Assembly (NCBI GenBank): GCA_036925085.1 | Contig: JAUPFP010000219.1 | Location: 1 to 64,000, forward strand | Length of the DNA: 64,000 nt | Direction: 5' to 3' | Source of the DNA: Brachycybe producta | Taxonomy: Eukaryota > Arthropoda > Diplopoda > Playtdesmida > Andrognathidae | Part shown: one piece after another, positions 9,901 through 64,000 of the stretch | Numbering within the stretch: the stretch's first letter is position 1 | Layout of the letters: the number at the start of each line of letters is the position of its first letter | Translations under genes and position numbers: made by a program | Notes under the pieces: generated by a model | What the model saw: the letters and a program-made list of their open reading frames with translations, nothing else | What the model was told of the DNA's origin: nothing | Databases searched by the model: none

Positions 9901-12900
9901 AACTGAAGTTGAATTTGAAGGTGAACTTGAAAGTGAAGTTGAAGTTGAAATTGAAGTTAAAATTAAAGTTGAAATTGAAGTTGAAATTGAAGTTGAAATT
10001 GAAGTTAAAATTGAAGTTTAAGTTTAAGTAAAGTTAAAGTTGAAGTTGAATTTGAATTTGAAGTTGAACTTGAAAGTGAAGTTGAAGTTTGAAATTGACG
10101 TTGAAGTTGAAGTTAAGTTGAAGTTGAAATTAAGTTTGAAATTGAAGTTGAAGTTGAAATTAAAGTTAAAATTGAAGTTAAATTTGAAGTTGAAATTGAA
10201 GTTGAAATTGAAGTTGAAATTGAAGTTGAAACTGAAGTTGAATTTGAAGGTGAACTTGAAAGTGAAGTTGAAGTTGAAATTGAAGTTGAAATTAAAGTTG
10301 AAATTGAAGTTGAAATTGAAGTTGAAATTGAAGTTGAAATTGAAGTTGAAATTGAAGTTGAAATTAATGTTAAAATTGAAGTTGAAATTGAAAGTTGAAA
10401 TTGAAGTTGAAATTGAAAGTTAAAATTGAAGTTAAAATTGAAGTTGAAATTGAAGTAGAAATTGAAGTTGAAATTGAAGTTGAAATTAAAACTGAAGTTG
10501 AAATTAAATTTGAAATTGAAGTTGAAATTGAAGTTAAAATTGAAGTTGAAATTTAAGTTGAAATTTAAGTTGAAATTGAAGTTAAAATTGAAGTTGAAAT
10601 TGAATTTGAAATTGAAGTTGAAATTGAAGTTGAAATTGAAGTTGAAATTGAAGTTGAAATTGGAGTTGAAATTGAAGTTGAAATTGAAGTTGAAATTGAA
10701 GTTGAAATTGAAGTTGAAATTGAAATTGAAATTGAAGTTGAAATTAAAGTTGAAGTTGAAATTGAAGTTGAAATTGAAGTTGAAACTGAAGTTGAAATTT
10801 AAGTTGAAATTGAAGTTGAAATTGAAGTTAAAATTGAAGTTGAAATTTAAGTTGAAATTTAAGTTGAAATTGAAGTTGAAATTGATGTTAAAATTGAAGT
10901 TGAAATTGAAGTTGAAATTGAAGTTGAAATTGAAGTTGAAATTGAAGTTGAAATTGAAGTTGAAATTGAAGTTGAAATGAAGTTGAAATTGAAGTTGAAA
11001 TTGAAGTTGAAATTGAAGTTGAAATTGAAGTTGAAATTGAAGTTGAAATTGAAATTAAAATTGAAGTCGAAATTGAAGTTGAAATTGAAGTTGAAATTGA
11101 CAGTTGAAATTGGAAGTTGAAATTGAAGTTGAAATTGAAGTTAAAATTGAAGTTAAAATTGAAGTTGAAAATGAAGTTGAAATTGAAGTTGAAATTGAAG
11201 TTGAAATTGAATTTGAAATTGAAGTTGAAATTGAAGTTGAAATTGGAGTTGAAATTGAAGTTGAAATTGAAGTTGAAATTGGAGTTGAAATTGAAGTTGA
11301 AATTGAAGTTAAAATTGAAGTTGAAAATGAAGTTGAAATTGAAGTTGAATTTGAATTTGAAATTGAAGTTGAAATTGGAGGTGAAATTGAAGTTAAAATT
11401 GGAGGTGAAATTGAAGTTGAAATTGAAGTTGAAATTGAAGTTGAATTTGAAGGTGAACTTGAAAGTGAAGTTGAAGTTGAAATTGAAGTTGAAATTGAAG
11501 TTGAAATTGATGTTAAAATTGAAGTTGAAATTGAAGTTGAAATTGAAGTTGAAATTGAAGTTGAAATTGAAAGTTAAAATTGAAGTTAAAATTGAAGTTG
11601 AAATTAAAGTTGAAATTGAAGTTAAAATTGAAGTTTAAGTTTAAGTAAAGTTAAAGTTGAAGTTGAAATTGAAGTTCAAATTGAAGTTGAAATTGAATTT
11701 GAAGTTAAGTTTGAATTTGAAATTGAAGTTGAAATTGAAGTTGAAATTGAAGTTGAAATTGATGTTAAAATTGAAGTTGAAATTGAAGTTGAAATTGAAG
11801 TTGAAATTGAAGTTGAAATTGAAATTTAAAATTGAAGTTTAAGTTTAAGTAAAGTTAAAGTTGAAGTTAAATTTGAATTTGAAGTTGAACTTGAAAGTGA
11901 AGTTGAAGTTGAAATTGACGTTGAAGTTGAAGTTAAGTTGAAGTTGAAATTAAGTTTGAAATTGAAGTTGAAGTTGAAATTAAAGTTAAAATTGAAGTTA
12001 AATTTGAAGTTGAAATTGAAGTTGAAATTGAAGTTGAAATTGAAGTTGAAATTGAAGTTGAAATTGAAGTTGAAATTAATGTTAAAATTGAAGTTGAAAT
12101 TGAAGTTGAAATTGAAGTTGAAATTGAAGTTGAAATTGAAGTTGAAATTAAAACTGAAGTTGAAATTAAATTTGAAATTGAAGTTGAAATTGAAGTTAAA
12201 ATTGAAGTTGAAATTTAAGTTGAAATTTAAGTTGAAATTGAAGTTAAAATTGAAGTTGAAATTGAATTTGAAATTGAAGTTGAAATTGAAGTTGAAATTG
12301 AAGTTGAAATTGAAGTTGAAATTGGAGTTGAAATTGAAGTTGAAATTGAAGTTGAAATTGAAGTTGAAATTGAAGTTGAAATTGAAATTGAAATTGAAGT
12401 TGAAATTAAAGTTGAAGTTGAAATTGAAGTTGAAATTGAAGTTGAAACTGAAGTTGAAATTTAAGTTGAAATTGAAGTTGAAATTGAAGTTAAAATTGAA
12501 GTTGAAATTTAAGTTGAAATTTAAGTTGAAATTGAAGTTGAAATTGATGTTAAAATTGAAGTTGAAATTGAAGTTGAAATTGAAGTTGAAATTGAAGTTG
12601 AAATTGAAGTTGAAATTGAAGTTGAAATTGAAGTTGAAATTGAAGTTGAAATTGAAGTTGAAATTGAAGTTGAAATTGAAGTTGAAATTGAAGTTGAAAT
12701 TGAAGTTGAAATTGAAATTAAAATTGAAGTCGAAATTGAAGTTGAAATTGAAGTTGAAATTGAAGTTGAAATTGAAGTTGAAATTGAAGTTGAAATTGAA
12801 GTTGAAATTGAAGTTGAAATTGAAGTTGAAATTGAAGTTAAAATTGAAGTTAAAATTGAAGTTGAAAATGAAGTTGAAATTGAAGTTGAAATTGAAGTTG

Positions 12901-13220
12901 AAATTGAATTTGAAATTGAAGTTGAAATTGAAGTTGAAATTGGAGTTGAAATTGAAGTTGAAATTGAAGTTGAAATTGGAGTTGAAATTGAAGTTGAAAT
13001 TGAAGTTAAAATTGAAGTTGAAAATGAAGTTGAAATTGAAGTTGAATTTGAATTTGAAATTGAAGTTTAAATTGGAGGTGAAATTGAAGTTGAAATTGGA
13101 GGTGAAATTGAAGTTGAAATTGAAGTTGAAATTGAAGTTGAATTTGAAGGTGAACTTGAAAGTGAAGTTGAAGTTGAAATTGAAGTTGAAATTGAAGTTG
13201 AAATTGAAGTTAAAATTGAA
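6958..13220 (+). repeat. About 6.2-kb cassette, copy 2
   Basis: Modules of about 266, 1087, 1162, 215, 328, 1617, 204 and 1384 bp in the same order as copy 1. Indels are dense as far as about 11.1 kb, for example GAAGCCTG near 7615, GAATTATGAAATTGAATT near 8471 and GAAACCTTGAAAGTAG near 8877, then become rare. The last part (11633-13220) is clean. Its GGAGGT pair, with a GAAGTTTAAATTGG variant, is shared with 36213-37801, 40401-41989 and 59942-61493, which places it in the same module class as those blocks of about 1.55-1.59 kb. Confidence 0.75.
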
Positions 13221-14176
13221 GTTTAAGTTTAAGTAAAGTTAAAGTTGAAGTTGAATTTTAATTTGAAGTTGAACTTGAAAGTGAAGTTGAAGTTGAAATT
13301 GACGTTGAAGTTGAAGTTAAGTTGAAGTTGAAATTGAATTTGAAATTGAAGTTGAAATTGAAGTTGAAATTGAAGTTGAAATTGAAGTTAAAATTAAAGT
13401 TGAAAATGAAGTTGAAATTGAAGTTGAATTTGAATTTGAAATTGAAGTTGAAATTGAAGTTGAAATTGGAGGTGAAATTGAAGTTGAAATTGAAGTTGAA
13501 ATTGAAGTTTAATTTGAAGGTGAACTTGAAAGTGAAGTTGAAGTTGAAATTGACGTTGAAGTTGAAGTTAAGTTGAAGTTGAAATTAAGTTTGAAATTGA
13601 AGTTGAAATTGAAGTTGAATTTGAAGGTGAACTTGAAAGTGAAGTTGAAGTTGAAATTGAAGTTGAAATTGAAGTTGAAATTGAAGTTAAAATTGAAGTT
13701 TGAGTTTAAGTAAAGTTAAAGTTGAAGTTGAATTTGAATTTGAAGTTGAACTTGAAAGTGAAGTTGAAGTTGAAATTGACGTTGAAGTTGAAGTTCAAAT
13801 TGAAGTTGAAATTGAAGTTGAAATTGAAGTTGAAATTGAAGTTGAAATTGAAGTTGAAATTGAAGTTGAATTTAAAGTGGAAATTGAAGTTAAAATTGAA
13901 GTTTAAGTTTAAGTAAAGTTAAAGTTGAAGTTGAAATTGAAGTTCAAATTGAAGTTGAAATTGAATTTGAAGTTAAGTTTGAATTTGAAATTGAAGTTGA
14001 AATTGAAGTTGAAATTGAAGTTGAAATTGATGTTAAAATTGAAGTTGAAATTGAAGTTGAAATTGAAGTTGAAATTGAAGTTGAAATTGAAATTTAAAAT
14101 TGAAGTTGAAATTGAAGTTAAAATTAAAGTTGAAATTGAAGTTGAAATTGAAGTTGAAATTGAAGTTAAAATTGAA
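13221..14176 (+). repeat. Module trio 477-203-276, copy 1
   Basis: Three modules of 477, 203 and 276 bp. The 477-bp module holds GACGTT and GTTAAGTTG twice, giving three -1 phase defects (480-3). The 203-bp module has GAATTTAAAGTGG near its end. The 276-bp module opens with GAAGTTCAAATT and closes with GAAATTTAAAATT. The punctuation element at 13698 has a private G (TGAG for TAAG). The trio recurs at 37802, 41990, 54368 and 61494. Confidence 0.88.
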
Positions 14177-14277
14177 GTTTAAGTTTAAGTAAAGTTAAAG
14201 TTGAAGTTGAATTTGAATTTGAAGTTGAACTTGAAAGTGAAGTTGAAGTTGAAATTGACGTTGAAGTTGAAGTTAAG

Positions 14278-15740
14278 TTGAAGTTGAAATTAAGTTTGAA
14301 ATTGAAGTTGAAATTGAAGTTGAATTTGAAGGTGAACTTGAAAGTGAAGTTGAAGTTGAAATTGAAGTTGAAATTGAAGTTGAAATTGAAGTTAAAATTG
14401 AAGTTTAAGTTTAAGTAAAGTTAAAGTTGAAGTTGAATTTGAATTTGAAGTTGAACTTGAAAGTGAAGTTGAAGTTGAAATTGACGTTGAAGTTGAAGTT
14501 CAAATTGAAGTTGAAATTGAAGTTGAAATTGAAGTTGAAATTGAAGTTGAAGTTGAAGTTGAAATTGAAGTTAAAATTAAAGTTGAAAATGAAGTTGAAA
14601 TTGAAGTTGAATTTGAATTTGAAATTGAAGTTGAAATTGAAGTTGAAATTGGAGGTGAAATTGAAGTTGAAATTGAAGTTGAAATTGAAGTTTAATTTGA
14701 AGGTGAACTTGAAAGTGAAGTTGAAGTTGAAATTGAAGTTGAATTTGAATTTGAAATTGAAGTTGAAATTGAAGTTGAAATTGAAGTTGAAATTGAAGTT
14801 GAAATTGAAGTTGAAATTGAAGTTGAAATTGAAGTTGAAATTGAAGTTGAAATTGAAGTTGAAATTGAAGTTAAAATTGAAGTTGAAAATGAAGTTGAAA
14901 TTGAAGTTAAAATTGAAGTTGAAAATGAAGTTGAAATTGAAGTTGAATTTGAATTTGAAATTGAAGTTGAAATTGAAGTTGAAATTGAAGTTTAATTTGA
15001 AGGTGAACTTGAAAGTGAAGTTGAAGTTGAAATTGAAGTTGAATTTGAATTTGAAATTGAAGTTGAAATTGAAGTTGAAATTGAAGTTGAAATTGAAGTT
15101 GAAATTGAAGTTGAAATTGAAGTTAAAATTGAAGTTGAAATTGAAGTTGAAAGTGAAGTTGAAATTGAAGTTGAAATTGATGTTAAAATTGAAGTTGAAA
15201 TTGAAGTTGAAATTGAAGTTGAAATTGAAGTTGAAATTGAAGTTGAAATTGAAGTTGAAATTGAAGTTGAAATTGAAGTTGAAATTGAAGTTAAAATTGA
15301 AGTTGAAAATGAAGTTGAAATTGAAGTTGAATTTGAATTTGAAATTGAAGTTGAAATTGAAGTTGAAATTGAAGTTGAAATTGGAGGTGAAATTGAAGTT
15401 GAAATTGAAGTTGAAATTGAAGTTGAATTTGAAGGTGAACTTGAAAGTGAAGTTGAAGTTGAAATTGAAGTTGAAATTGAAGTTGAAATTGATGTTAAAA
15501 TTGAAGTTGAAATTGAAGTTGAAATTGAAGTTGAAATTGAAAGTTAAAATTGAAGTTGAAATTGAAGTTGAATTTAAAGTGGAAATTGAAGTTAAAATTG
15601 AAGTTTAAGTTTAAGTAAAGTTAAAGTTGAAGTTGAAATTGAAGTTCAAATTGAAGTTGAAATTGAATTTGAAGTTAAGTTTGAATTTGAAATTGAAGTT
15701 GAAATTGAAGTTGAAATTGAAGTTGAAATTGATGTTAAAA
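14278..15740 (+). repeat. 1463-bp tandem duplication, copy 1
   Basis: Copy 1 starts inside the 226-bp module (14177-14402) and includes the 1200-bp module 14403-15602 and the first half of the next module. Every landmark recurs 1463 bp downstream: punctuation 14403 to 15866 and 15603 to 17066. The 1200-bp modules look identical by eye; each encodes the same 393-codon repetitive frame. Boundaries are set by the chimeric joint at 15741-15754. Confidence 0.9.
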
Positions 15741-15754
15741 TTGAAGTTGAAATT
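15741..15754 (+). other. Recombination joint inside a chimeric 263-bp module
   Basis: The module 15603-15865 begins as a 264-type (GTTCAAATT, then GATGTTAAAATT) and ends as a 226/238-type (AAGTTTGAAATT, GAATTTGAAGGTG, GAACTT). The switch lies in TTGAAGTTGAAATT, 14 bp common to both parents. The parental sites are near 14278 and 17204. The length of 263 (264-1) fits loss of the +1 defect of one parent. Confidence 0.85.
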
Positions 15755-17203
15755 AAGTTTGAAATTGAAGTTGAAATTGAAGTTGAATTTGAAGGTGAAC
15801 TTGAAAGTGAAGTTGAAGTTGAAATTGAAGTTGAAATTGAAGTTGAAATTGAAGTTAAAATTGAAGTTTAAGTTTAAGTAAAGTTAAAGTTGAAGTTGAA
15901 TTTGAATTTGAAGTTGAACTTGAAAGTGAAGTTGAAGTTGAAATTGACGTTGAAGTTGAAGTTCAAATTGAAGTTGAAATTGAAGTTGAAATTGAAGTTG
16001 AAATTGAAGTTGAAGTTGAAGTTGAAATTGAAGTTAAAATTAAAGTTGAAAATGAAGTTGAAATTGAAGTTGAATTTGAATTTGAAATTGAAGTTGAAAT
16101 TGAAGTTGAAATTGGAGGTGAAATTGAAGTTGAAATTGAAGTTGAAATTGAAGTTTAATTTGAAGGTGAACTTGAAAGTGAAGTTGAAGTTGAAATTGAA
16201 GTTGAATTTGAATTTGAAATTGAAGTTGAAATTGAAGTTGAAATTGAAGTTGAAATTGAAGTTGAAATTGAAGTTGAAATTGAAGTTGAAATTGAAGTTG
16301 AAATTGAAGTTGAAATTGAAGTTGAAATTGAAGTTAAAATTGAAGTTGAAAATGAAGTTGAAATTGAAGTTAAAATTGAAGTTGAAAATGAAGTTGAAAT
16401 TGAAGTTGAATTTGAATTTGAAATTGAAGTTGAAATTGAAGTTGAAATTGAAGTTTAATTTGAAGGTGAACTTGAAAGTGAAGTTGAAGTTGAAATTGAA
16501 GTTGAATTTGAATTTGAAATTGAAGTTGAAATTGAAGTTGAAATTGAAGTTGAAATTGAAGTTGAAATTGAAGTTGAAATTGAAGTTAAAATTGAAGTTG
16601 AAATTGAAGTTGAAAGTGAAGTTGAAATTGAAGTTGAAATTGATGTTAAAATTGAAGTTGAAATTGAAGTTGAAATTGAAGTTGAAATTGAAGTTGAAAT
16701 TGAAGTTGAAATTGAAGTTGAAATTGAAGTTGAAATTGAAGTTGAAATTGAAGTTAAAATTGAAGTTGAAAATGAAGTTGAAATTGAAGTTGAATTTGAA
16801 TTTGAAATTGAAGTTGAAATTGAAGTTGAAATTGAAGTTGAAATTGGAGGTGAAATTGAAGTTGAAATTGAAGTTGAAATTGAAGTTGAATTTGAAGGTG
16901 AACTTGAAAGTGAAGTTGAAGTTGAAATTGAAGTTGAAATTGAAGTTGAAATTGATGTTAAAATTGAAGTTGAAATTGAAGTTGAAATTGAAGTTGAAAT
17001 TGAAAGTTAAAATTGAAGTTGAAATTGAAGTTGAATTTAAAGTGGAAATTGAAGTTAAAATTGAAGTTTAAGTTTAAGTAAAGTTAAAGTTGAAGTTGAA
17101 ATTGAAGTTCAAATTGAAGTTGAAATTGAATTTGAAGTTAAGTTTGAATTTGAAATTGAAGTTGAAATTGAAGTTGAAATTGAAGTTGAAATTGATGTTA
17201 AAA
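15741..17203 (+). repeat. 1463-bp tandem duplication, copy 2
   Basis: Second copy of the 1463-bp unit. It ends inside the module 17066-17329, where the parental 264-bp module continues without the GAAATTAAGTTT joint seen at the left end. The arrangement (intact parental modules outside, one chimeric module between) is what an unequal crossover between a 226/238-type and a 264-type module would leave. Confidence 0.9.
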
Positions 17204-20200
17204 TTGAAGTTGAAATTGAAGTTGAAATTGAAGTTGAAATTGAAATTTAAAATTGAAGTTGAAATTGAAGTTAAAATTAAAGTTGAAATTGAAGTTGAAA
17301 TTGAAGTTGAAATTGAAGTTAAAATTGAAGTTTAAGTTTAAGTAAAGTTAAAGTTGAAGTTGAATTTGAATTTGAAGTTGAACTTGAAAGTGAAGTTGAA
17401 GTTGAAATTGACGTTGAAGTTGAAGTTAAGTTGAAGTTGAAATTAAGTTTGAAATTGAAGTTGAAGTTGAAATTAAAGTTAAAATTGAAGTTAAATTTGA
17501 AGTTGAAATTGAAGTTGAAATTGAAGTTGAAATTGAAGTTGAAACTGAAGTTGAATTTGAAGGTAAACTTGAAAGTGAAGTTGAAGTTGAAATTGAAGTT
17601 GAAATTGAAGTTGAAATTGAAGTTGAAATTGAAGTTAAAATTGAAGTTTAAGTTTAAGTAAAGTTAAAGTTGAAGTTGAATTTGAATTTGAAGTTGAACT
17701 TGAAAGTGAAGTTGAAGTTGAAATTGACGTTGAAGTTGAAGTTAAGTTGAAGTTGAAATTAAGTTTGAAATTGAAGTTGAAATTGAAGTTGAATTTGAAG
17801 GTGAACTTGAAAGTGAAGTTGAAGTTGAAATTGAAGTTGAAATTGAAGTTGAAATTGAAGTTGAAATTGAAGTTAAAATTGAAGTTTAAGTTTAAGTAAA
17901 GTTAAAGTTGAAGTTGAATTTGAATTTGAAGTTGAACTTGAAAGTGAAGTTGAAGTTGAAATTGACGTTGAAGTTGAAGTTCAAATTGAAGTTGAAATTG
18001 AAGTTGAAATTGAAGTTGAAATTGAAGTTGAAGTTGAAGTTGAAATTGAAGTTAAAATTAAAGTTGAAAATGAAGTTGAAATTGAAGTTGAATTTGAATT
18101 TGAAATTGAAGTTGAAATTGAAGTTGAAATTGGAGGTGAAATTGAAGTTGAAATTGAAGTTGAAATTGAAGTTTAATTTGAAGGTGAACTTGAAAGTGAA
18201 GTTGAAGTTGAAATTGAAGTTGAATTTGAATTTGAAATTGAAGTTGAAATTGAAGTTGAAATTGAAGTTGAAATTGAAGTTGAAATTGAAGTTGAAATTG
18301 AAGTTGAAATTGAAGTTGAAATTGAAGTTGAAATTGAAGTTGAAATTGAAGTTAAAATTGAAGTTGAAAATGAAGTTGAAATTGAAGTTAAAATTGAAGT
18401 TGAAAATGAAGTTGAAATTGAAGTTGAATTTGAATTTGAAATTGAAGTTGAAATTGAAGTTGAAATTGAAGTTTAATTTGAAGGTGAACTTGAAAGTGAA
18501 GTTGAAGTTGAAATTGAAGTTGAATTTGAATTTGAAATTGAAGTTGAAATTGAAGTTGAAATTGAAGTTGAAATTGAAGTTGAAATTGAAGTTGAAATTG
18601 AAGTTAAAATTGAAGTTGAAATTGAAGTTGAAAGTGAAGTTGAAATTGAAGTTGAAATTGATGTTAAAATTGAAGTTGAAATTGAAGTTGAAATTGAAGT
18701 TGAAATTGAAGTTGAAATTGAAGTTGAAATTGAAGTTGAAATTGAAGTTGAAATTGAAGTTGAAATTGAAGTTAAAATTGAAGTTGAAAATGAAGTTGAA
18801 ATTGAAGTTGAATTTGAATTTGAAATTGAAGTTGAAATTGAAGCTGAAATTGGAGGTGAAATTGAAGTTGAAATTGAAGTTGAAATTGAAGTTGAATTTG
18901 AAGGTGAACTTGAAAGTGAAGTTGAAGTTGAAATTGAAGTTGAAATTGAAGTTGAAATTGATGTTAAAATTGAAGTTGAAATTGAAGTTGAAATTGAAGT
19001 TGAAATTGAAAGTTAAAATTGAAGTTGAAATTGAAGTTGAATTTAAAGTGGAAATTGAAGTTAAAATTGAAGTTTAAGTTTAAGTAAAGTTAAAGTTGAA
19101 GTTGAAATTGAAGTTCAAATTGAAGTTGAAATTGAATTTGAAGTTAAGTTTGAATTTGAAATTGAAGTTGAAATTGAAGTTGAAATTGAAGTTGAAATTG
19201 ATGTTAAAATTGAAGTTGAAATTGAAGTTGAAATTGAAGTTGAAATTGAAGTTGAAATTGAAATTTAAAATTGAAGTTGAAATTGAAGTTAAAATTAAAG
19301 TTTAAATTGAAGTTGAAATTGAAGTTGAAATTGAAGTTACAATTGAAGTTTAAGTTTAAGTAAAGTTAAAGTTGAAGTTGAATTTGAATTTGAAGTTGAA
19401 CTTGAAAGTGAAGTTGAAGTTGAAATTGACGTTGAAGTTGAAGTTAAGTTGAAGTTGAAATTAAGTTTGAAATTGAAGTTGAAGTTGAAATTAAAGTTAA
19501 AATTGAAGTTAAATTTGAAGTTGAAATTGAAGTTGAAATTGAAGTTGAAATTGAAGTTGAAACTGAAGTTGAATTTGAAGGTAAACTTGAAAGTGAAGTT
19601 GAAGTTGAAATTGAAGTTGAAATTGAAGTTGAAATTGAAGTTGAAATTGAAGTTGAAATTGAAGTTGAAATTGAAGTTGAAATTGAAGTTGAAATTGAAG
19701 TTGAAATTAATGTTAAAATTGAAGTTGAAATTGAAGTTGAAATTGAAGTTGAAATTGAAGTTGAAATTGAAAGTTAAAATTGAAGTTAAAATTGAAGTTG
19801 AAATTGAAGTAGAAATTGAAGTTGAAATTGAAGTTGAAATTAAAACTGAAGTTGAAATTAAATTTGAAATTGAAGTTGAAATTGAAGTTAAAATTGAAGT
19901 TGAAATTTAAGTTGAAATTTAAGTTGAAATTGAAGTTAAAATTGAAGTTGAAATTGAATTTGAAATTGAAGTTGAAATTGAAGTTGAAATTGAAGTTGAA
20001 ATTGAAGTTGAAATTGGAGTTGAAATTGAAGTTGAAATTGAAGTTGAAATTGAAGTTGAAATTGAAGTTGAAATTGAAGTTGAAATTGAAGTTAAAATTG
20101 AAGTTGAAAATGAAGTTGAAATTGGAGGTGAAATTGAAGTTGAAATTGAAGTTGAAATTGAAGTTTAATTTGAAGGTGAACTTGAAAGTGAAGTTGAAGT

Positions 20201-41900: not shown

Positions 41901-41989
41901 TTGAAGTTGAATTTGAAGGTGAACTTGAAAGTGAAGTTGAAGTTGAAATTGAAGTTGAAATTGAAGTTGAAATTGAAGTTAAAATTGAA

Positions 41990-43088: not shown

Positions 43089-43113
43089 TTGAATTTGAAG
43101 TTGAAGTTGAAGT
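43089..43113 (+). other. Same deletion joint in the second 4188-bp copy
   Basis: Identical junction sequence 4188 bp downstream of the joint at 38901-38925. Presence in both copies places the deletion before the 4188-bp duplication. Confidence 0.78.
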
Positions 43114-44144
43114 TGAAATTGAAGTTAAAATTAAAGTTGAAAATGAAGTTGAAATTGAAGTTGAATTTGAATTTGAAATTGAAGTTGAAATTGAAGTTGA
43201 AATTGGAGGTGAAATTGAAGTTGAAATTGAAGTTGAAATTGAAGTTTAATTTGAAGGTGAACTTGAAAGTGAAGTTGAAGTTGAAATTGAAGTTGAATTT
43301 GAATTTGAAATTGAAGTTGAAATTGAAGTTGAAATTGAAGTTGAAATTGAAGTTGAAATTGAAGTTGAAATTGAAGTTGAAATTGAAGTTGAAATTGAAG
43401 TTGAAATTGAAGTTGAAATTGAAGTTAAAATTGAAGTTGAAAATGAAGTTGAAATTGAAGTTAAAATTGAAGTTGAAAATGAAGTTGAAATTGAAGTTGA
43501 ATTTGAATTTGAAATTGAAGTTGAAATTGAAGTTGAAATTGAAGTTTAATTTGAAGGTGAACTTGAAAGTGAAGTTGAAGTTGAAATTGAAGTTGAATTT
43601 GAATTTGAAATTGAAGTTGAAATTGAAGTTGAAATTGAAGTTGAAATTGAAGTTGAAATTGAAGTTGAAATTGAAGTTAAAATTGAAGTTGAAATTGAAG
43701 TTGAAAGTGAAGTTGAAATTGAAGTTGAAATTGATGTTAAAATTGAAGTTGAAATTGAAGTTGAAATTGAAGTTGAAATTGAAGTTGAAATTGAAGTTGA
43801 AATTGAAGTTGAAATTGAAGTTGAAATTTGGGTTGAAATTGAAGTTAAAATTGAAGTTGAAAATGAAGTTGAAATTGAAGTTGAATTTGAATTTGAAATT
43901 GAAGTTGAAATTGAAGTTGAAATTGGAGGTGAAATTGAAGTTGAAATTGAAGTTGAAATTGAAGTTGAATTTGAAGGTGAACTTGAAAGTGAAGTTGAAG
44001 TTGAAATTGAAGTTGAAATTGAAGTTGAAATTGATGTTAAAATTGAAGTTGAAATTGAAGTTGAAATTGAAGTTGAAATTGAAAGTTAAAATTGAAGTTG
44101 AAATTGAAGTTGAATTTAAAGTGGAAATTGAAGTTAAAATTGAA

Positions 44145-52517: not shown

Positions 52518-54367
52518 GTTTAAGTTTAAGTAAAGTTAAAGTTGAAGTTGAAATTGAAGTTCAAATTGAAGTTGAAATTGAATTTGAAGTTAAGTTTGAA
52601 TTTGAAATTGAAGTTGAAATTGAAGTTGAAATTGAAGTTGAAATTGATGTTAAAATTGAAGTTGAAATTGAAGTTGAAATTGAAGTTGAAATTGAAATTT
52701 AAAATTGAAGTTGAAATTGAAGTTAAAATTAAAGTTGAAATTGAAGTTGAAATTAAAGTTGAAATTGAAGTTAAAATTGAAGTTTAAGTTTAAGTAAAGT
52801 TAAAGTTGAAGTTGAATTTGAATTTGAAGTTGAACTTGAAAGTGAAGTTGAAGTTGAAATTGACGTTGAAGTTGAAGTTAAGTTGAAGTTGAAATTAAGT
52901 TTGAAATTGAAGTTGAAGTTGAAATTAAAGTTAAAATTGAAGTTAAATTTGAAGTTGAAATTGAAGTTGAAATTGAAGTTGAAATTGAAGTTGAAACTGA
53001 AGTTGAATTTGAAGGTAAACTTGAAAGTGAAGTTGAAGTTGAAATTGAAGTTGAAATTGAAGTTGAAATTGAAGTTGAAATTGAAGTTAAAATTGAAGTT
53101 TAAGTTTAAGTAAAGTTAAAGTTGAAGTTGAATTTGAATTTGAAGTTGAACTTGAAAGTGAAGTTGAAGTTGAAATTGACGTTGAAGTTGAAGTTAAGTT
53201 GAAGTTGAAATTAAGTTTGAAATTGAAGTTGAAATTGAAGTTGAATTTGAAGGTGAACTTGAAAGTGAAGTTGAAGTTGAAATTGAAGTTGAAATTGAAT
53301 TTGAAATTGAAGTTGAAATTGAAGTTAAAATTGAAGTTTAAGTTTAAGTAAAGTTAAAGTTGAAGTTGAATTTGAATTTGAAGTTGAACTTGAAAGTGAA
53401 GTTGAAGTTGAAATTGACGTTGAAGTTGAAGTTCAAATTGAAGTTTAAATTGAAGTTGAAATTGAAGTTGAAATTGAAGTTGAAGTTGAAGTTGAAATTG
53501 AAGTTAAAATTAAAGTTGAAAATGAAGTTGAAATTGAAGTTGAATTTGAATTTGAAATTGAAGTTGAAATTGAAGTTGAAATTGGAGGTGAAATTGAAGT
53601 TGAAATTGAAGTTGAAATTGAAGTTTAATTTGAAGGTGAACTTGAAAGTGAAGTTGAAGTTGAAATTGAAGTTGAATTTGAATTTGAAATTGAAGTTGAA
53701 ATTGAAGTTGAAATTGAAGTTGAAATTGAAGTTGAAATTGAAGTTGAAATTGAAGTTGAAATTGAAGTTGAAATTGAAGTTGAAATTGAAGTTGAAATTG
53801 AAGTTGAAATTGAAGTTAAAATTGAAGTTGAAAATGAAGTTGAAATTGAAGTTAAAATTGAAGTTGAAAATGAAGTTGAAATTGAAGTTGAATTTGAATT
53901 TGAAATTGAAGTTGAAATTGAAGTTGAAAGTGAAGTTGAAATTGAAGTTGAAATTGATGTTAAAATTGAAGTTGAAATTGAAGTTGAAATTGAAGTTGAA
54001 ATTGAAGTTGAAATTGAAGTTGAAATTGAAGTTGAAATTGAAGTTGAAATTGAAGTTGAAATTGAAGTTAAAATTGAAGTTGAAAATGAAGTTGAAATTG
54101 AAGTTGAATTTGAATTTGAAATTGAAGTTGAAATTGAAGCTGAAATTGGAGGTGAAATTGAAGTTGAAATTGAAGTTGAAATTGAAGTTGAATTTGAAGG
54201 TGAACTTGAAAGTGAAGTTGAAGTTGAAATTGAAGTTGAAATTGAAGTTGAAATTGATGTTAAAATTGAAGTTGAAATTGAAGTTGAAATTGAAGTTGAA
54301 ATTGAAAGTTAAAATTGAAGTTGAAATTGAAGTTGAATTTAAAGTGGAAATTGAAGTTAAAATTGAA
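52518..54367 (+). repeat. Long-range duplicated block, partial copy 3 (264-316-238-1032)
   Basis: Same order as 17066-19071 at an offset of 35,452 bp. The last module is 156 bp (13 dodecamers) shorter, with one GAAGTTTAATTTGAAGG block lost near 53.93 kb, where GAATTTGAATTTG is followed directly by GAAAGTGAAG. Shared marks are GGTAAACTTG near 53013 and GAAGCTGAAATTGG near 54138. Private marks are GAAATTAAAGTTG near 52752, GAAATTGAATTTG near 53297 and GTTTAAATTG near 53443. Confidence 0.86.
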
Positions 54368-55321
54368 GTTTAAGTTTAAGTAAAGTTAAAGTTGAAGTTG
54401 AATTTGAATTTGAAGTTGAACTTGAAAGTGAAGTTGAAGTTGAAATTGACGTTGAAGTTGAAGTTAAGTTGAAGTTGAAATTGAATTTGAAATTGAAGTT
54501 GAAATTGAAGTTGAAATTGAAGTTGAAATTGAAGTTAAAATTAAAGTTGAAAATGAAGTTGAAATTGAAGTTGAATTTGAATTTGAAATTGAAGTTGAAA
54601 TTGAAGTTGAAATTGGAGGTGAAATTGAAGTTGAAATTGAAGTTGAAATTGAAGTTTAATTTGAAGGTGAACTTGAAAGTGAAGTTGAAGTTGAAATTGA
54701 CGTTGAAGTTGAAGTTAAGTTGAAGTTGAAATTAAGTTTGAAATTGAAGTTGAAATTGAAGTTGAATTTGAAGGTGAACTTGAAAGTGAAGTTGAAGTTG
54801 AAATTGAAGTTGAAATTGAAGTTGAAATTGAAGTTAAAATTGAAGTTTAAGTTTAAGTAAAGTTAAAGTTGAAGTTGAATTTGAATTTGAAGTTGAACTT
54901 GAAAGTGAAGTTGAAGTTGAAATTGACGTTGAAGTTGAGTTCAAATTGAAGTTGAAATTGAAGTTGAAATTGAAGTTGAAATTGAAGTTGAAATTGAAGT
55001 TGAAATTGAAGTTGAATTTAAAGTGGAAATTGAAGTTAAAATTGAAGTTTAAGTTTAAGTAAAGTTAAAGTTGAAGTTGAAATTGAAGTTCAAATTGAAG
55101 TTGAAATTGAATTTGAAGTTAAGTTTGAATTTGAAATTGAAGTTGAAATTGAAGTTGAAATTGAAGTTGAAATTGATGTTAAAATTGAAGTTGAAATTGA
55201 AGTTGAAATTGAAGTTGAAATTGAAGTTGAAATTGAAATTTAAATTGAAGTTGAAATTGAAGTTAAAATTAAAGTTGAAATTGAAGTTGAAATTGAAGTT
55301 GAAATTGAAGTTAAAATTGAA
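54368..55321 (+). repeat. Module trio 477-203-276, copy 4 (477-202-275)
   Basis: Same order as 13221-14176. It is short by one base in the second module (GTTGAGTTC near 54936) and one in the third (GAAATTTAAATTG near 55237). These mark the left edge of the tract of frequent 1-bp deletions. Confidence 0.86.
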
Positions 55322-56732
55322 GTTTAAGTTTAAGTAAAGTTAAAGTTGAAGTTGAATTTGAATTTGAAGTTGAACTTGAAAGTGAAGTTGAGTTGAAATT
55401 GACGTTGAAGTTGAAGTTAAGTTGAAGTTGAAATTAAGTTTGAAATTGAAGTTGAAATTGAAGTTGAATTTGAAGGTGAACTTGAAAGTGAAGTTGAAGT
55501 TGAAATTGAAGTTGAAATTGAAGTTGAAATTGAAGTTGAAATTGAAGTTAAAATTGAAGTTTAAGTTTAAGTAAAGTTAAAGTTGAAGTTGAATTTGAAT
55601 TTGAAGTTGAACTTGAAAGTGAAGTTGAAGTTGAAATTGACGTTGAAGTTGAAGTTCAAATTGAAGTTGAAATTGAAGTTGAAATTGAAGTTGAAATTGA
55701 AGTTGAAGTTGAAGTTGAATTGAAGTTAAAATTAAGTTGAAAATGAAGTTGAAATTGAAGTTGAATTTGAATTTGAAATTGAAGTTGAATTGAAGTTGAA
55801 TTGGAGGTGAAATTGAAGTTGAATTGAAGTGAAATTGAAGTTTAATTTGAAGGTGAACTTGAAAGTGAAGTTGAAGTTGAAATTGAAGTTGAATTTGAAT
55901 TTGAAATTGAAGTTGAAATTGAAGTTGAAATTGAAGTTGAAATTGAAGTTGAAATTGAAGTTGAAATTGAAGTTGAATTGAAGTTGAAATTGAAGTTGAA
56001 ATTGAAGTTGAAATTGAAGTAAAATTGAAGTTGAAAATGGAAGTTGAAATTGAAGTTAAAATTGAAGTTGAAATGAAGTTGAAATTGAAGTTGAATTTGA
56101 ATTGAAATTGAAGTGAAATTGAAGTTGAAATTGAAGTTTAATTTGAAGGTGAACTTGAAAGTGAAGTTGAAGTTGAAATTGAAGTTGAATTTGAATTTGA
56201 AATTGAAGTTGAAATTGAAGTTGAAATTGAAGTTGAAATTGAAGTTGAAATTGAAGTTGAAATTGAAGTTAAAATTGAAGTTGAAATTGAAGTTGAAAGT
56301 GAAGTTGAAATTGAAGTTGAAATTGATGTTAAAATTGAAGTGAATTGAAGTTGAAATTGAAGTTGAAATTGAAGTTGAAATTGAAGTTGAAATTGAAGTT
56401 GAAATTGAAGTTGAAATTGAAGTTGAATTGAAGTTAAAATTGAAGTTGAAAATGAAGTTGAAATTGAAGTTGAATTTGAATTTGAAATTGAAGTTGAAAT
56501 TGAAGTTGAAATTGGAGGTGAAATTGAAGTTGAAATTGAAGTTGAATTGAAGTTGAATTTGAAGGTGAACTTGAAAGTGAAGTTGAAGTTGAAATTGAAG
56601 TTGAAATTGAAGTTGAAATTGATGTTAAAATTGAAGTTGAAATTGAAGTTGAAATTGAAGTTGAAATTGAAAGTTAAAATTGAAGTTGAAATTGAAGTTG
56701 AATTTAAAGTGGAAATTGAAGTTAAAATTGAA
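55322..56732 (+). repeat. 238-type and 1188-type modules with many 1-bp deletions (237 and 1174 bp)
   Basis: The order of variants is that of the 238-1188 pair elsewhere. Many GAAATT units have lost one A (GTTGAATTG) and several GTTG have lost a T (GAAGTGAAATT), near 55388, 55718, 55733, 55789, 55799, 55826, 56019, 56101, 56113, 56339 and 56425. At least one insertion occurs (GAAAATGGAAG near 56036). The net length stays close to that of the intact modules. Confidence 0.82.
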
Positions 56733-58841
56733 GTTTAAGTTTAAGTAAAGTTAAAGTTGAAGTTGAAATGAAGTTCAAATTGAAGTTGAAATTGAATTTG
56801 AAGTTAAGTTTGAATTTGAAATTGAAGTTGAAATTGAAGTTGAAATTGAAGTTGAAATTGATGTTAAAATTGAAGTTGAAATTGAAGTTGAAATTGAAGT
56901 TGAAATTGAAATTTAAAATTGAAGTTGAAATTGAAAGTTAAAATTAAAGTTGAAATTGAAGTTGAAATTAAAGTTGAAATTGAAGTTAAAATTGAAGTTT
57001 AAGTTTAAGTAAAGTTAAAGTTGAAGTTGAATTTGAATTTGAAGTTGAACTTGAAAGTGAAGTTGAAGTTGAAATTGACGTTGAAGTTGAAGTTAAGTTG
57101 AAGTGAAATTAAGTTTGAAATTGAAGTTGAAGTTGAAATTAAAGTTAAAATTGAAGTTAAATTTGAAGTTGAAATTGAAGTTGAAATTGAAGTTGAAATT
57201 GAAGTTGAAACTGAAGTTGAATTTGAAGGTAAACTTGAAAGTGAAGTTGAAGTTGAAATTGAAGTTGAAATTGAAGTTGAAATTGAAGTTGAAATTGAAG
57301 TTAAAATTGAAGTTTAAGTTTAAGTAAAGTTAAAGTTGAAGTTGAATTTGAATTTGAAGTTGAACTTGAAAGTGAAGTTGAAGTTGAAATTGACGTTGAA
57401 GTTGAAGTTAAGTTGAAGTTGAAATTAAGTTTGAAATTGAAGTTGAAATTGAAGTTGAATTTGAAGGTGAACTTGAAAGTGAAGTTGAAGTTGAAATTGA
57501 AGTTGAAATTGAATTTGAAATTGAAGTTGAAATTGAAGTTAAAATTGAAGTTTAAGTTTAAGTAAAGTTAAAGTTGAAGTTGAATTTGAATTTGAAGTTG
57601 AACTTGAAAGTGAAGTTGAAGTTGAAATTGACGTTGAAGTTGAAGTTCAAATTGAAGTTGAAATTGAAGTTGAAATTGAAGTTGAAATTGAAGTTGAAGA
57701 ATGAAGTTGAAATTGAAAGTTAAATTAAAGTTGAAAATGAAGTTGAAATTGAAGTTGATTTGAATTTGAAATTGAAGTTGAAATTGAAGTTGAAATTGGA
57801 GGTGAAATTGAAGTTGAAATTGAAGTTGAAATTGAAGTTTAATTTGAAGGTGAACTTGAAAGTGAAGTTGAAGTTGAAATTGAAGTTGAATTTGAATTTG
57901 AAATTGAAGTTGAAATTGAAGTTGAAAATTGAAGTTGAAATTGAAGTTGAAATTGAAGTTGAAATTGAAGTTGAAATTGAAGTTGAAATTGAAGTTGAAA
58001 TTGAAGTTGAAATTGAAGTTAAAATTGAAGTTGAAAATGAAGTTGAAATTGAAGTTAAAATTGAAGTTGAAAATGAAGTTGAAATTGAAGTTGAATTTGA
58101 ATTTGAAATTGAAGTTGAAATTGAAGTTGAAAGTGAAGTTGAAATTGAAGTTGAAATTGATGTTAAAATTGAAGTTGAAATTGAAGTTGAAATGAAGTTG
58201 AAATTGAAGTTGAAATTGAAGTTGAAATTGAAGTTGAAATTGAAGTTGAAATTGAAGTTGAAATTGAAGTTAAAATTGAAGTTGAAAATGAAGTTGAAAT
58301 TGAAGTTGAATTTGAATTTGAAATTGAAGTTGAAATTGAAGCTGAAATTGGAGGTGAAATTGAAGTTGAAATTGAAGTTGAAATTGAAGTTGAATTTGAA
58401 GGTGAACTTGAAAGTGAAGTTGAAGTTGAATTGAAGTTGAAATTGAAGTTGAAATTGATGTTAAAATTGAAGTTGAAATTGAAGTTGAAATTGAAGTGAA
58501 TTGAAAGTTAAAATTGAAGTTGAAATTGAAGTTGAATTTAAAGTGGAAATTGAAGTTAAAATTGAAGTTTAAGTTTAAGTAAAGTTAAAGTTGAAGTTGA
58601 AATTGAAGTTCAAATTGAAGTTGAAATTGAATTTGAAGTTAAGTTGAATTTGAAATTGAAGTTGAAATTGAAGTTGAAATTGAAGTTGAAATTGATGTTA
58701 AAATTGAAGTTGAAATTGAAGTTGAAATTGAAGTTGAAATTGAAGTTGAAATTGAAATTTAAAATTGAAGTTGAAATTGAAGTTAAAATTAAAGTTGAAA
58801 TTGAAGTTGAAATTGAAGTTGAAATTGAAGTTAAAATTGAA
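56733..58841 (+). repeat. Long-range duplicated block, partial copy 4 (264-315-238-1017-275)
   Basis: Same module order as at 17066 and 52518. It shares with 52518-54367 the private GAAATTAAAGTTG (near 56967) and GAAATTGAATTTG (near 57507) and the shortened last module, so these two are sister copies about 4215 bp apart. Scattered 1-bp deletions and a few insertions (near 56763, 56930, 57099, 57695, 57751, 58190, 58427, 58493 and 58641) distinguish it. Confidence 0.84.
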
Positions 58842-59941
58842 GTTTAAGTTTAAGTAAAGTTAAAGTTGAAGTTGAATTTGAATTTGAAGTTGAACTTGAA
58901 AGTGAAGTTGAAGTTGAAATTGACGTTGAAGTTGAAGTTAAGTTGAAGTTGAAATTAAGTTTGAAATTGAAGTTGAGTTGAAATTAAAGTTAAAATTGAA
59001 GTTAAATTTGAAGTTGAAATTGAAGTTGAAATTGAAGTTGAAATTGAAGTTGAAACTGAAGTTGAATTTGAAGGTAAACTGAAAGTGAAGTTGAAGTTGA
59101 AATTGAAGTTGAAATTGAAGTTGAAATTGAAGTTGAAATTGAAGTTGAATTGAAGTTGAAATTGAAGTTGAAATTGAAGTTGAAATTGAAGTTGAAATTA
59201 ATGTTAAAATTGAAGTTGAAATTGAAGTTGAAATTGAAGTTGAAATTGAAGTTGAAATTGAAAGTTAAAATTGAAGTTAAAATTGAAGTTGAAATTGAAG
59301 TAGAAATTGAAGTTGAAATTGAAGTTGAAATTAAAACTGAAGTTGAAATTAAATTTGAAATTGAAGTTGAAATTGAAGTTAAAATTGAAGTTGAAATTGG
59401 AGTTGAAATTGAAGTTGAAATTGAAGTTAAAATTGAAGTTGAAAATGAAGTTGAAATTGAAGTTGAATTTGAATTTGAAATTGAAGTTGAAATTGGAGGT
59501 GAAATTGAAGTTAAAATTGGAGGTGAAATTGAAGTTGAAATTGAAGTTGAAATTGAAGTTGAATTTGAAGGTGAACTTGAAAGTGAAGTTGAAGTTGAAA
59601 TTGAAGTTGAAATTGAAGTTGAAATTGATGTTAAAATTGAAGTTGAAATTGAAGTTGAAATTGAAGTTGAAATTGAAGTTGAAATTGAAAGTTAAAATTG
59701 AAGTTAAATTGAAGTTGAAATTAAAGTTGAAATTGAAGTTAAAATTGAAGTTTAAGTTTAAGTAAAGTTAAAGTTGAAGTTGAAATTGAAGTTCAAATTG
59801 AAGTTGAAATTGAATTTGAAGTTAAGTTTGAATTTGAAATTGAAGTTGAAATTGAAGTTGAAATTGAAGTTGAAATTGATGTTAAAATTGAAGTTGAAAT
59901 TGAAGTTGAAATTGAAGTTGAAATTGAAATTTAAAATTGAA
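58842..59941 (+). repeat. 908-bp and 192-bp modules
   Basis: The 908-bp module is the counterpart of 35013-36020, shortened and carrying 1-bp losses near 58973, 59077, 59145 and 59705. The 59705 loss is the last of the indel-rich tract. Its eight phase defects sum to -4, and 912-4 gives 908. The 192-bp module matches 36021-36212 and 40209-40400. Confidence 0.82.
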
Positions 59942-61493
59942 GTTTAAGTTTAAGTAAAGTTAAAGTTGAAGTTGAATTTGAATTTGAAGTTGAACTTGAA
60001 AGTGAAGTTGAAGTTGAAATTGACGTTGAAGTTGAAGTTAAGTTGAAGTTGAAATTAAGTTTGAAATTGAAGTTGAAGTTGAAATTAAAGTTAAAATTGA
60101 AGTTAAATTTGAAGTTGAAATTGAAGTTGAATTTGAAGTTGAAATTGAAGTTGAAACTGAAGTTGAATTTGAAGGTGAACTTGAAAGTGAAGTTGAAGTT
60201 GAAATTGAAGTTGAAATTGAAGTTGAAATTGAAGTTGAAATTGAAGTTGAAATTGAAGTTGAAATTGAAGTTGAAATTGAAGTTGAAATTAATGTTAAAA
60301 TTGAAGTTGAAATTGAAGTTGAAATTGAAGTTGAAATTGAAGTTGAAATTGAAAGTTAAAATTGAAGTTAAAATTGAAGTTGAAATTGAAGTAGAAATTG
60401 AAGTTGAAATTGAAGTTGAAATTAAAACTGAAGTTGAAATTAAATTTGAAATTGAAGTTGAAATTGAAGTTAAAATTGAAGTTGAAATTTAAGTTGAAAT
60501 TTAAGTTGAAATTGAAGTTAAAATTGAAGTTGAAATTGAATTTGAAATTGAAGTTGAAATTGAAGTTGAAATTGAAGTTGAAATTGAAGTTGAAATTGGA
60601 GTTGAAATTGAAGTTGAAATTGAAGTTGAAATTGAAGTTGAAATTGAAGTTGAAATTGAAATTGAAATTGAAGTTGAAATTAAAGTTGAAGTTGAAATTA
60701 AGTTGAAATTGAAGTTGAAACTGAAGTTGAAATTTAAGTTGAAATTGAAGTTGAAATTGAAGTTAAAATTGAAGTTGAAATTTAAGTTGAAATTTAAGTT
60801 GAAATTGAAGTTGAAATTGATGTTAAAATTGAAGTTGAAATTGAAGTTGAAATTGAAGTTGAAATTGAAGTTGAAATTGAAGTTGAAATTGAAGTTGAAA
60901 TTGAAGTTGAAATTGAAGTTGAAATTGAAGTTGAAATTGAAGTTGAAATTGAAGTTGAAATTGAAGTTGAAATTGAAGTTGAAATTGAAATTAAAATTGA
61001 AGTCGAAATTGAAGTTGAAATTGAAGTTGAAATTGAAGTTGAAATTGAAGTTGAAATTGAAGTTGAAATTGAAGTTGAAATTGAAGTTGAAATTGAAGTT
61101 AAAATTGAAGTTAAAATTGAAGTTGAAAATGAAGTTGAAATTGAAGTTGAAATTGAAGTTGAAATTGAATTTGAAATTGAAGTTGAAATTGAAGTTGAAA
61201 TTGGAGTTGAAATTGAAGTTGAAATTGAAGTTGAAATTGGAGTTGAAATTGAAGTTGAAATTGAAGTTAAAATTGAAGTTGAAAATGAAGTTGAAATTGA
61301 AGTTGAATTTGAATTTGAAATTGAAGTTTAAATTGGAGGTGAAATTGAAGTTGAAATTGGAGGTGAAATTGAAGTTGAAATTGAAGTTGAAATTGAAGTT
61401 GAATTTGAAGGTGAACTTGAAAGTGAAGTTGAAGTTGAAATTGAAGTTGAAATTGAAGTTGAAATTGAAGTTGAAATTGAAGTTAAAATTGAA
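59942..61493 (+). repeat. 1552-bp module, counterpart of the 1589-bp module
   Basis: Variant order as in 36213-37801 and 40401-41989: GAAGTAGAAATT near 60389, repeated GAAATTTAAG, GTCGAAATT near 61003, a GGAGTT pair, and GAAGTTTAAATTGG near 61326. It is 37 bp shorter, including a private 5-bp unit (GAAATTAAGTTGAAATT near 60696). GAATTTGAAG near 60129 is also private. Confidence 0.85.
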
Positions 61494-62437
61494 GTTTAAG
61501 TTTAAGTAAAGTTAAAGTTGAAGTTGAATTTGAATTTGAAGTTGAACTTGAAAGTGAAGTTGAAGTTGAAATTGACGTTGAAGTTGAAGTTAAGTTGAAG
61601 TTGAAATTGAATTTGAAATTGAAGTTGAAATTGAAGTTGAAATTGAAGTTGAAATTGAAGTTAAAATTAAAGTTGAAAATGAAGTTGAAATTGAAGTTGA
61701 ATTTGAATTTGAAATTGAAGTTGAAATTGAAGTTGAAATTGGAGGTGAAATTGAAGTTGAAATTGAAGTTGAAATTGAAGTTTAATTTGAAGGTGAACTT
61801 GAAAGTGAAGTTGAAGTTGAAATTGACGTTGAAGTTGAAGTTAAGTTGAAGTTGAAATTAAGTTTGAAATTGAAGTTGAAATTGAAGTTGAATTTGAAGG
61901 TGAACTTGAAAGTGAAGTTGAAGTTGAAATTGAAGTTGAAATTGAAGTTGAAATTGAAGTTAAAATTGAAGTTTAAGTTTAAGTAAAGTTAAAGTTGAAG
62001 TTGAATTTGAATTTGAAGTTGAACTTGAAAGTGAAGTTGAAGTTGAAATTGACGTTGAAGTTGAAGTTCAAATTGAAGTTGAAATTGAAGTTGAAATTGA
62101 AGTTGAAATTGAAGTTGAAATTGAAGTTGAAATTGAAGTTGAATTTAAAGTGGAAATTGAAGTTAAAATTGAAGTTTAAGTTTAAGTAAAGTTAAAGTTG
62201 AAGTTGAAATTGAAGTTCAAATTGAAGTTGAAATTGAATTTGAAGTTAAGTTTGAATTTGAAATTGAAGTTGAAATTGAAGTTGAAATTGAAGTTGAAAT
62301 TGATGTTAAAATTGAAGTTGAAATTGAAGTTGAAATTGAAGTTGAAATTGAAGTTGAAATTGAAATTTAAAATTGAAGTTGAAATTGAAGTTAAAATTAA
62401 AGTTGAAATTGAAGTTGAAATTGAAGTTAAAATTGAA
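61494..62437 (+). repeat. Module trio 477-203-264, copy 5
   Basis: Same order as the other trios, with the ancestral GACGTTG in the 203-bp module. The third module is one dodecamer shorter (264) than in the other clean copies (276). Confidence 0.88.
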
Positions 62438-64000
62438 GTTTAAGTTTAAGTAAAGTTAAAGTTGAAGTTGAATTTGAATTTGAAGTTGAACTTGAAAGTG
62501 AAGTTGAAGTTGAAATTGACGTTGAAGTTGAAGTTAAGTTGAAGTTGAAATTAAGTTTGAAATTGAAGTTGAAATTGAAGTTGAATTTGAAGGTGAACTT
62601 GAAAGTGAAGTTGAAGTTGAAATTGAAGTTGAAATTGAAGTTGAAATTGAAGTTGAAATTGAAGTTAAAATTGAAGTTTAAGTTTAAGTAAAGTTAAAGT
62701 TGAAGTTGAATTTGAATTTGAAGTTGAACTTGAAAGTGAAGTTGAAGTTGAAATTGACGTTGAAGTTGAAGTTCAAATTGAAGTTGAAATTGAAGTTGAA
62801 ATTGAAGTTGAAATTGAAGTTGAAGTTGAAGTTGAATTTGAAGTTAAAATTAAAGTTGAAAATGAAGTTGAAATTGAAGTTGAATTTGAATTTGAAATTG
62901 AAGTTGAAATTGAAGTTGAAATTGGAGGTGAAATTGAAGTTGAAATTGAAGTTGAAATTGAAGTTTAATTTGAAGGTGAACTTGAAAGTGAAGTTGAAGT
63001 TGAAATTGAAGTTGAATTTGAATTTGAAATTGAAGTTGAAATTGAAGTTGAAATTGAAGTTGAAATTGAAGTTGAAATTGAAGTTGAAATTGAAGTTGAA
63101 ATTGAAGTTGAAATTGAAGTTGAAATTGAAGTTGAAATTGAAGTTAAAATTGAAGTTGAAAATGAAGTTGAAATTGAAGTTAAAATTGAAGTTGAAAATG
63201 AAGTTGAAATTGAAGTTGAATTTGAATTTGAAATTGAAGTTGAAATTGAAGTTGAAATTGAAGTTTAATTTGAAGGTGAACTTGAAAGTGAAGTTGAAGT
63301 TGAAATTGAAGTTGAATTTGAATTTGAAATTGAAGTTGAAATTGAAGTTGAAATTGAAGTTGAAATTGAAGTTGAAATTGAAGTTGAAATTGAAGTTAAA
63401 ATTGAAGTTGAAATTGAAGTTGAAAGTGAAGTTGAAATTGAAGTTGAAATTGATGTTAAAATTGAAGTTGAAATTGAAGTTGAAATTGAAGTTGAAATTG
63501 AAGTTGAAATTGAAGTTGAAATTGAAGTTGAAATTGAAGTTGAAATTGAAGTTGAAATTGAAGTTAAAATTGAAGTTGAAAATGAAGTTGAAATTGAAGT
63601 TGAATTTGAATTTGAAATTGAAGTTGAAATTGAAGTTGAAATTGGAGGTGAAATTGAAGTTGAAATTGAAGTTGAAATTGAAGTTGAATTTGAAGGTGAA
63701 CTTGAAAGTGAAGTTGAAGTTGAAATTGAAGTTGAAATTGAAGTTGAAATTGATGTTAAAATTGAAGTTGAAATTGAAGTTGAAATTGAAGTTGAAATTG
63801 AAAGTTAAAATTGAAGTTGAAATTGAAGTTGAATTTAAAGTGGAAATTGAAGTTAAAATTGAAGTTTAAGTTTAAGTAAAGTTAAAGTTGAAGTTGAAAT
63901 TGAAGTTCAAATTGAAGTTGAAATTGAATTTGAAGTTAAGTTTGAATTTGAAATTGAAGTTGAAATTGAAGTTGAAATTGAAGTTGAAATTGATGTTAAA
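62438..64000 (+). repeat. 238-bp and 1188-bp modules and the start of a 264-type module
   Basis: The 238-bp module is of the usual type. The 1188-bp module (62676-63863) has the private GAATTTGAAGTTAAAATT shared with 51330-52517. The final 137 bp open a 264-type module (GTTCAAATT, GATGTTAAA) and are cut by the window edge, so the array continues to the right. Confidence 0.88.

Follow-up and report, generated by a model that had tools for sequence, protein, structure and literature searches.

How does a satellite made of six-letter words come to have modules that all fit a six-base lattice? The question is raised by the first 64,000 bases of contig JAUPFP010000219.1 of the millipede Brachycybe producta (this stretch is hereafter the window; the whole contig, C219, is 68,934 bp long and belongs to an assembly of 295.3 Mb in 442 contigs), which carry a hexamer satellite array split into modules by a recurrent punctuation element. 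An earlier note on this DNA had proposed that module lengths are explained exactly by hexamer arithmetic with a short list of one-base defects, and that the lattice may be kept either by homogenization or by a disfavoring of 1-bp slips. We consider it very probable that the window is part of a young higher-order satellite array with the 12-mer GAAGTTGAAATT as its base, in which a few old one-base slips would have been copied along with blocks by unequal exchange, conversion or rolling-circle reinsertion, and in which three slip-rich tracts would represent poorly corrected assembled consensus.

For the word parse, the last 4,934 bases of C219 were joined to the window, and the entire contig was read with a circular six-state hexamer hidden Markov model (HMM) that allowed insertions and deletions. 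The contig resolves into 11,492 words, comprising 11,144 hexamers, mostly GAARTT, together with 184 five-mers, 149 seven-mers and 15 others. The commonest odd words are TAAGT (-1; 97 copies), GAAAGTT (+1; 57) and AAGTT (-1; 53), followed by GAAATTT (+1; 32) and GAAAATT (+1; 19). Tandem Repeats Finder (TRF) gives a period of 12 over positions 3-63,997 of the window (5,358.6 copies of the 12-mer), GC skew lies between 0.91 and 0.98 in 64/64 one-kb steps, and C occurs 378 times per 64,000 bases. The window array is thus satellite DNA in the usual sense, a long head-to-tail array of short units, and an Rfam search of the window returned no RNA family match. Across the assembly, an 18-mer of three GAARTT words has 674,065 matches; such matches stand locally at 30-68 per kb on two contigs, from which we roughly estimate ~10-22 Mb of hexamer arrays, or 3-8% of the assembly. 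We found no published account of a GAAGTTGAAATT, GAAGTT or TTCAAC satellite in the open-access literature, which omits most subscription journals. An isolated array of the 12-mer, ~390 bp long and the sole one in 10 kb there, lies at ~849,855-850,245 of contig C47, and is a possible seed or stray copy.

The length arithmetic is correct but cannot fail. All 20 of the lengths listed in the earlier note were found among the 77 intervals between successive TAAGT words starting in 11,633-63,864, and its figures are therefore right. However, closure is an identity for any parse, since multiplying the word count by six and adding the deviations of the words always returns the length. When slips are placed at random, as in the shuffle comparison that had been proposed as a check, 15,400/15,400 intervals also close, which makes closure uninformative. 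What distinguishes the window from random placement is the recurrence of its slips. We called a defect recurrent when the contig has three or more examples of its seven-word context, and private when that context is seen once. In clean tracts picked after the map of private slips had been seen (11,633-26,399, 28,701-54,800 and 59,801-63,864), 142/154 defects stand in contexts seen at least three times, against a mean of 11 and a maximum of 31 in 200 trials in which 154 slips were put randomly into a slip-free version of these tracts. The distinct defect contexts number 17, compared with a random mean of 137.5. Over the earlier note's entire range, 11,633-63,864, 167/220 slips are recurrent in this sense. 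This recurrence bears out the suggestion that phase defects are built into the modules and inherited with them, and the reported scarcity of background indels in mid-window also holds (0.28 private defects per kb in 11,633-53,999).

When the defects are listed from the HMM with its 5- and 7-mers, 59 of the 77 intervals contain recurrent defects only. Among the remaining 18, three have recurrent defects plus a nearby substitution (starts 13,707, 19,357 and 46,436), two have in common one extra slip seen twice (starts 48,404 and 49,223), eight begin inside a slip-rich tract at 54.8-59.8 kb, and five carry other rare slips (starts 21,457, 23,743, 25,929, 28,121 and 59,951). Module lengths fall into few classes modulo 6 because the copies all carry the same few slips.

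Most of these slips can be traced to a handful of types. The punctuation element is a 35-mer with 93 exact copies in C219 and 789 genome-wide, on both strands; its reversed pattern has no copy in the genome. Among the first 100 places listed of the 789, it is present on at least seven contigs besides C219, and among the places listed on C183 its spacings are recurrent (400 eight times, 467 five times, 202 and 178 three times each). Contigs C183 and C198 both begin 170 bases before a punctuation element (position 171 in each), and the next spacing is similar in the two (635 and 641). The -1 word AAGTT lies exactly 15 words past the punctuation TAAGT in 30/36 clean-tract cases. Within the eight commonest flank classes of each +1 word, GAAATTT is flanked by GATGTT AAAATT, a canonical run and, farther on, AAAATT in 24/28 copies (32 copies in total), and GAAAGTT by GATGTT or AATGTT, AAAATT, a canonical run and, farther on, AAAATT in 38/44 (57 in total). 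Because these flanks are common to both words, the two most simply, and probably, go back to one ancestral +1 insertion, GAAA(G/T)TT, plus a later substitution. About three founding slips (-1 in punctuation, -1 AAGTT and +1 GAAA(G/T)TT), with rare later ones, would then cover most of the list.

Changes in length were thought to proceed in steps of 6 bp, but the step is one of 12 bp. We took canonical runs with identical flanks from the clean portion of window and contig and grouped them into 22 flank classes of three runs or more, and 125/125 departures from the commonest length of a class are even numbers of hexamers, these departures being copies and not independent events. Evenness is forced by definition in two of the 22 classes (9 of the 125 departures); the other 20 classes give 116/116 even. 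This indicates that the working unit is the 12-mer. Larger blocks recur as well: exact repeats of 4-5 kb occur while words vary (Table 1), module lengths are recurrent in C219, and the commonest repeat offsets are 46,798, 4,188, 19,719, 27,079 and 2,006. The array therefore shows the near-identical blocks of diverged units that mark a higher-order satellite, with a mosaic order of modules and not a single regular unit in tandem. The exact 5,323-bp repeat may be a real duplication or an assembly-graph loop.

Private defects are spread very unevenly, at 7.1 per kb in 1-11,632, 5.0 in 54,000-60,000 and 0.22 in 60,001-68,934. In contexts seen at least five times, 42 slips stand against 12 substitutions in 1-11,632 and two against one in 26,400-28,700, a third tract that the earlier note had not separated; in 54,801-59,800 there are 15 slips against two substitutions. 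Modules in this last tract measure 202, 275, 237 and 315, one base below the clean lengths of 203, 276, 238 and 316. A like patch lies at ~896.5-898 kb of contig C53, with 23 odd words (21 of them five-mers) and a net change of -19 bases, in an array that is elsewhere slip-free for tens of kb. Because slips are several-fold above substitutions, unlike in the control satellite described below, the slip-rich tracts look like assembly errors, and we infer that they represent poorly corrected consensus.

Table 1. Features of the window, with coordinates on the forward strand of C219.
Feature	Start	End	Strand	Evidence and details
Hexamer satellite array, unit GAAGTTGAAATT (12 bp)	1	64000	+	TRF, GC skew, HMM parse
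Error-like tract, mainly private +1 slips	1	11632	+	Private slips: +1 62, +2 9, -1 10, -2 1
First clean punctuation element GAAGTTTAAGTTTAAGTAAAGTTAAAGTTGAAGTT	11630	11664	+	-1 word TAAGT at 11,642-11,646
Example of +1 word GAAATTT, before AAAATT	11821	11827	+	
Example of -1 word AAGTT	11935	11939	+	Usually 15 words past punctuation TAAGT
Example of +1 word GAAAGTT, before AAAATT	15539	15545	+	
Exact 5,323-bp block	16814	22136	+	Again at 63,612-68,934 (the contig's last base), offset 46,798; suffix comparison
Small error-like tract, private +1/+2 slips	26400	28700	+	7 private events: six +1, one +2
Exact 4,205-bp block	35995	40199	+	Again at 40,183-44,387, offset 4,188; suffix comparison
Error-like tract, mainly private -1 slips	54801	59800	+	26/30 private slips are -1

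Although the lattice might be held by an avoidance of slips, the clean tracts show no depletion of them. In 11,633-26,399, 28,701-54,800 and 59,801-68,934, with a four-word context seen at least five times, there are 13 private substitutions and four private slips in 7,635 tested words, and longer contexts give 12:4 (six words) and 9:4 (eight words). As a control we used a 183/372-bp satellite on C53, aligned in four blastn self-pairs of at least 85% identity with a total of 3.5 kb (in stretch L060, the bases from 6,878 onward), which has 295 substitutions and 33 indels, one of them of 6 bp. Its 80-85% identity band (600:93) was excluded, and would only raise the control ratio. The ratio of slips to substitutions is thus 4:13 in the window and 33:295 in the control (Fisher p 0.10), a difference that runs toward more slips, and the proposal that 1-bp slips are disfavored in the window is not upheld. 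Homogenization, the other option offered, is the supported one. The scarcity of private slips reflects a scarcity of private changes of every kind, and the hexamer array of C219 is young.

Other comparisons were set aside. Histone duplicates were rejected as a source of a neutral ratio because the two contigs concerned are near-identical, differing over 6,847 bp by six mismatches and a single 1-bp gap and not at all over a further 3,112-bp piece; the regions, C18:4,474,500-4,484,499 and C89:18,957-28,956, may be a single locus present as two haplotypes. For the control satellite, an alignment of monomers was dropped, as it took in 10 of them only (30 substitutions and 4 indels in 4 pairs). Ungapped word-diagonal pairs, with substitutions to slips of 102:0 in C53 and 101:14 in C219, were not relied on because many C219 events are 12-bp misregister.

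A sibling array on C53 brings the question of slip avoidance back. This contig is not hexamer satellite at 1, 150, 300, 400 and 500 kb, and from 550 kb on it is hexamer satellite at every sampled place, of another, GAAGTT-rich subfamily, so that the switch lies between 501 and 550 kb. Within C53:1-501,000 the 183/372-bp satellite covers nearly all of stretch L059 and positions 6,878-10,000 of L060. At 1,270,440-1,280,439 the contig carries hexamer satellite in the orientation opposite to that of its other stretches, with 18 five-mers among 1,671 words. Six stretches, at 700 and 780 kb (2 kb each) and at 840, 860, 880 and 905 kb (10 kb each), amount to 44 kb in which the words are in phase throughout; a lone parsed 7-mer at the edge of the 780-kb stretch reads in phase as GAATAT GGAACT. 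Phase is also constant at 10/10 places checked from 790 to ~896 kb. In the six stretches, private single substitutions to slips are 62:0 with a two-word and 47:0 with a six-word context, which differs from the control ratio of 295:33 (Fisher p 0.005 and 0.023), although the control, with its four alignment pairs, is more diverged and was compared by a different method. Words carrying two or three changes (13 with the two-word context) are left out of the substitution count. Adding the patch-bearing stretch gives 67 and 50 substitutions, and its slips are all inside the patch.

These stretches speak for a process that keeps the 6-bp phase, by which out-of-phase indels would be actively disfavored through mismatched-loop repair, a register need in exchange or a protein that reads a 6-bp phase, and the lattice would be kept beyond what copying achieves. 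On C53, where words are freely substituted, such a process would eliminate or prevent slips; in the window, slips would be tolerated at a few fixed places. We regard this process as unlikely. The window shows no such depletion, and many of the private substitutions on C53 swap one common word for another and may be conversion; when only substitutions to rare words are counted, the ratio is 11:0 and uninformative (p 0.61 against the control). Moreover, other stretches of C53, at 915, 1,000, 1,180 and 1,215 kb, do carry recurrent slips, and phase varies by place between 550 and 790 kb.

The reading that we prefer, a young higher-order array in which old slips travel with copied blocks, is supported by the recurrence of slips, the position of AAGTT, the common flanks of the +1 words, the 12-bp steps, the exact multi-kb repeats, the presence of punctuation on other contigs, the scarcity of private variation and the excess of slips over substitutions in two tracts, with a like patch on C53. 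Several points weigh against it. The sampled C53 stretches at 700-915 kb are slip-free outside one patch, and block copying alone suffices there only if the founder had no slips. Private slips in the window number four, which is a small sample. Whether the three tracts are errors, and whether the exact duplications are real, is judged from the assembly itself, and an exact 5.3-kb repeat that reaches the contig end could also be expected from an assembly loop. Finally, an excess of +1 in one tract and of -1 in another would need two error modes or two molecules.

Alternatively, the regularity might largely be a product of assembly, a graph loop or collapsed consensus having repeated the blocks and erased true indels. 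The exact repeat extending as far as the last base of the contig, and the exact tandem copy of 4,205 bp, are what such a history would leave, and the slip-rich tracts show that correction was uneven. However, punctuation with its -1 word is found on other contigs too, clean modules still differ by substitutions and by 12-bp steps, and C53 retains many substitutions and no slips; we judge this account improbable, and place it below phase protection.

The idea that the lattice is a reading frame, with the array or its slip-free C53 sibling encoding a giant dipeptide-repeat protein, is almost certainly wrong: although the window has 54 stop-to-stop frames of at least 300 codons, the clean tracts hold 24 per strand against 10.7 (plus strand, maximum 16 in 100 shuffles) and 15.9 (minus strand) after word shuffling, and each of four 10-kb C53 stretches (L035, L031, L030 and L029) has one stop-free frame on the strand opposite GAAGTT, long frames are found on either strand and end at similar places, a pattern that module boundaries would produce, and the maximum length, 493 codons, is below the mean of 584 for word-shuffled sequence. 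A stop in the open C53 frame needs two changes, and column shuffles contain 2.1 stops on average, 23/200 being stop-free. Purifying selection in one frame, judged on the 62 private substitutions of C53 and for the window on open reading frame lengths only, was not found, as there is no clear synonymous enrichment in any of six frames (largest excess 15/62, with 12.5 expected), and we rejected a protein-coding repeat.

The earlier note knew of no described satellite with such bookkeeping, but a parallel exists in DYZ1 (HSat3A6) of the human Y chromosome, a TTCCA lattice with a 3,564-bp unit whose authors, in the part of their account available to us, discuss indels that shift the TTCCA frame (PMC3925983). 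By our own factorization, 3,564 = 5x713-1, so that a net slip belongs to the DYZ1 unit. Copies of DYZ1 are described, in the accessible portions of two reports, as differing in length by 5, 15 or 20 bp, and also in one case by 16 bp and in several by 1 bp (PMC3925983; PMC4022460). As far as these texts go, DYZ1 resembles the C219 array in its short-word lattice, its substituted words and its kb-scale unit with a net slip; it differs in having one dominant 3.6-kb unit, whereas C219 is a mosaic of modules of 192-2,116 bp split by punctuation, and in slips that are apparently commoner. Word length (five against six) and sequence also differ. Slips common to the copies of a block are found in C219 as in DYZ1. 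Derivation from the CATTC pentamer, which characterizes DYZ1 and HSat2,3, is not, given that nearly all words of C219 are hexamers and that C is so rare.

Alpha-satellite monomers are of nucleosome scale, in contrast with the 6- or 12-bp words of C219. Alpha-satellite higher-order repeats are nevertheless alike, in the sections of the source at hand, in that divergent monomers are amplified as blocks and the blocks are near-identical (PMC8122249). The 5-10 bp centromeric satellites of Drosophila (AATAT, AAGAG) share very short words, long arrays and an arthropod host with C219, but a module and punctuation structure is not mentioned for them in the same sections (PMC8122249). For Leptopilina boulardi, the available part of one report gives hexamers as the commonest class of simple sequence repeats, and the sequence of the hexamers is not stated in it (PMC7202025). 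The C219 array is a new sequence of the DYZ1 kind, with a richer module mosaic and, in our view, an ordinary mechanism.

The assembly also contains mitochondrial sequence. Contig C442 is mitochondrial (15,359 bp, 81% AT); its COX1 reads through with translation table 5, TGA being read as Trp, and its gene and tRNA order looks rearranged, gene names except COX1 having been assigned by eye. Matches to mitochondrial COX1 lie on large contigs at C1:12,697,416-12,698,753 and C17:3.33-4.03 Mb, one of them near full length with an extra TAA.

The striking pattern of the window becomes plain once it is resolved into an addition that must always come out right, a small number of fossil slips, and tracts whose assembly is doubtful. 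The slip-free stretches of C53 still raise the question of whether a short-word satellite might protect its phase. Fossil slips are usable as pedigree markers of block copying, and could trace exchange inside satellites made of simple words.

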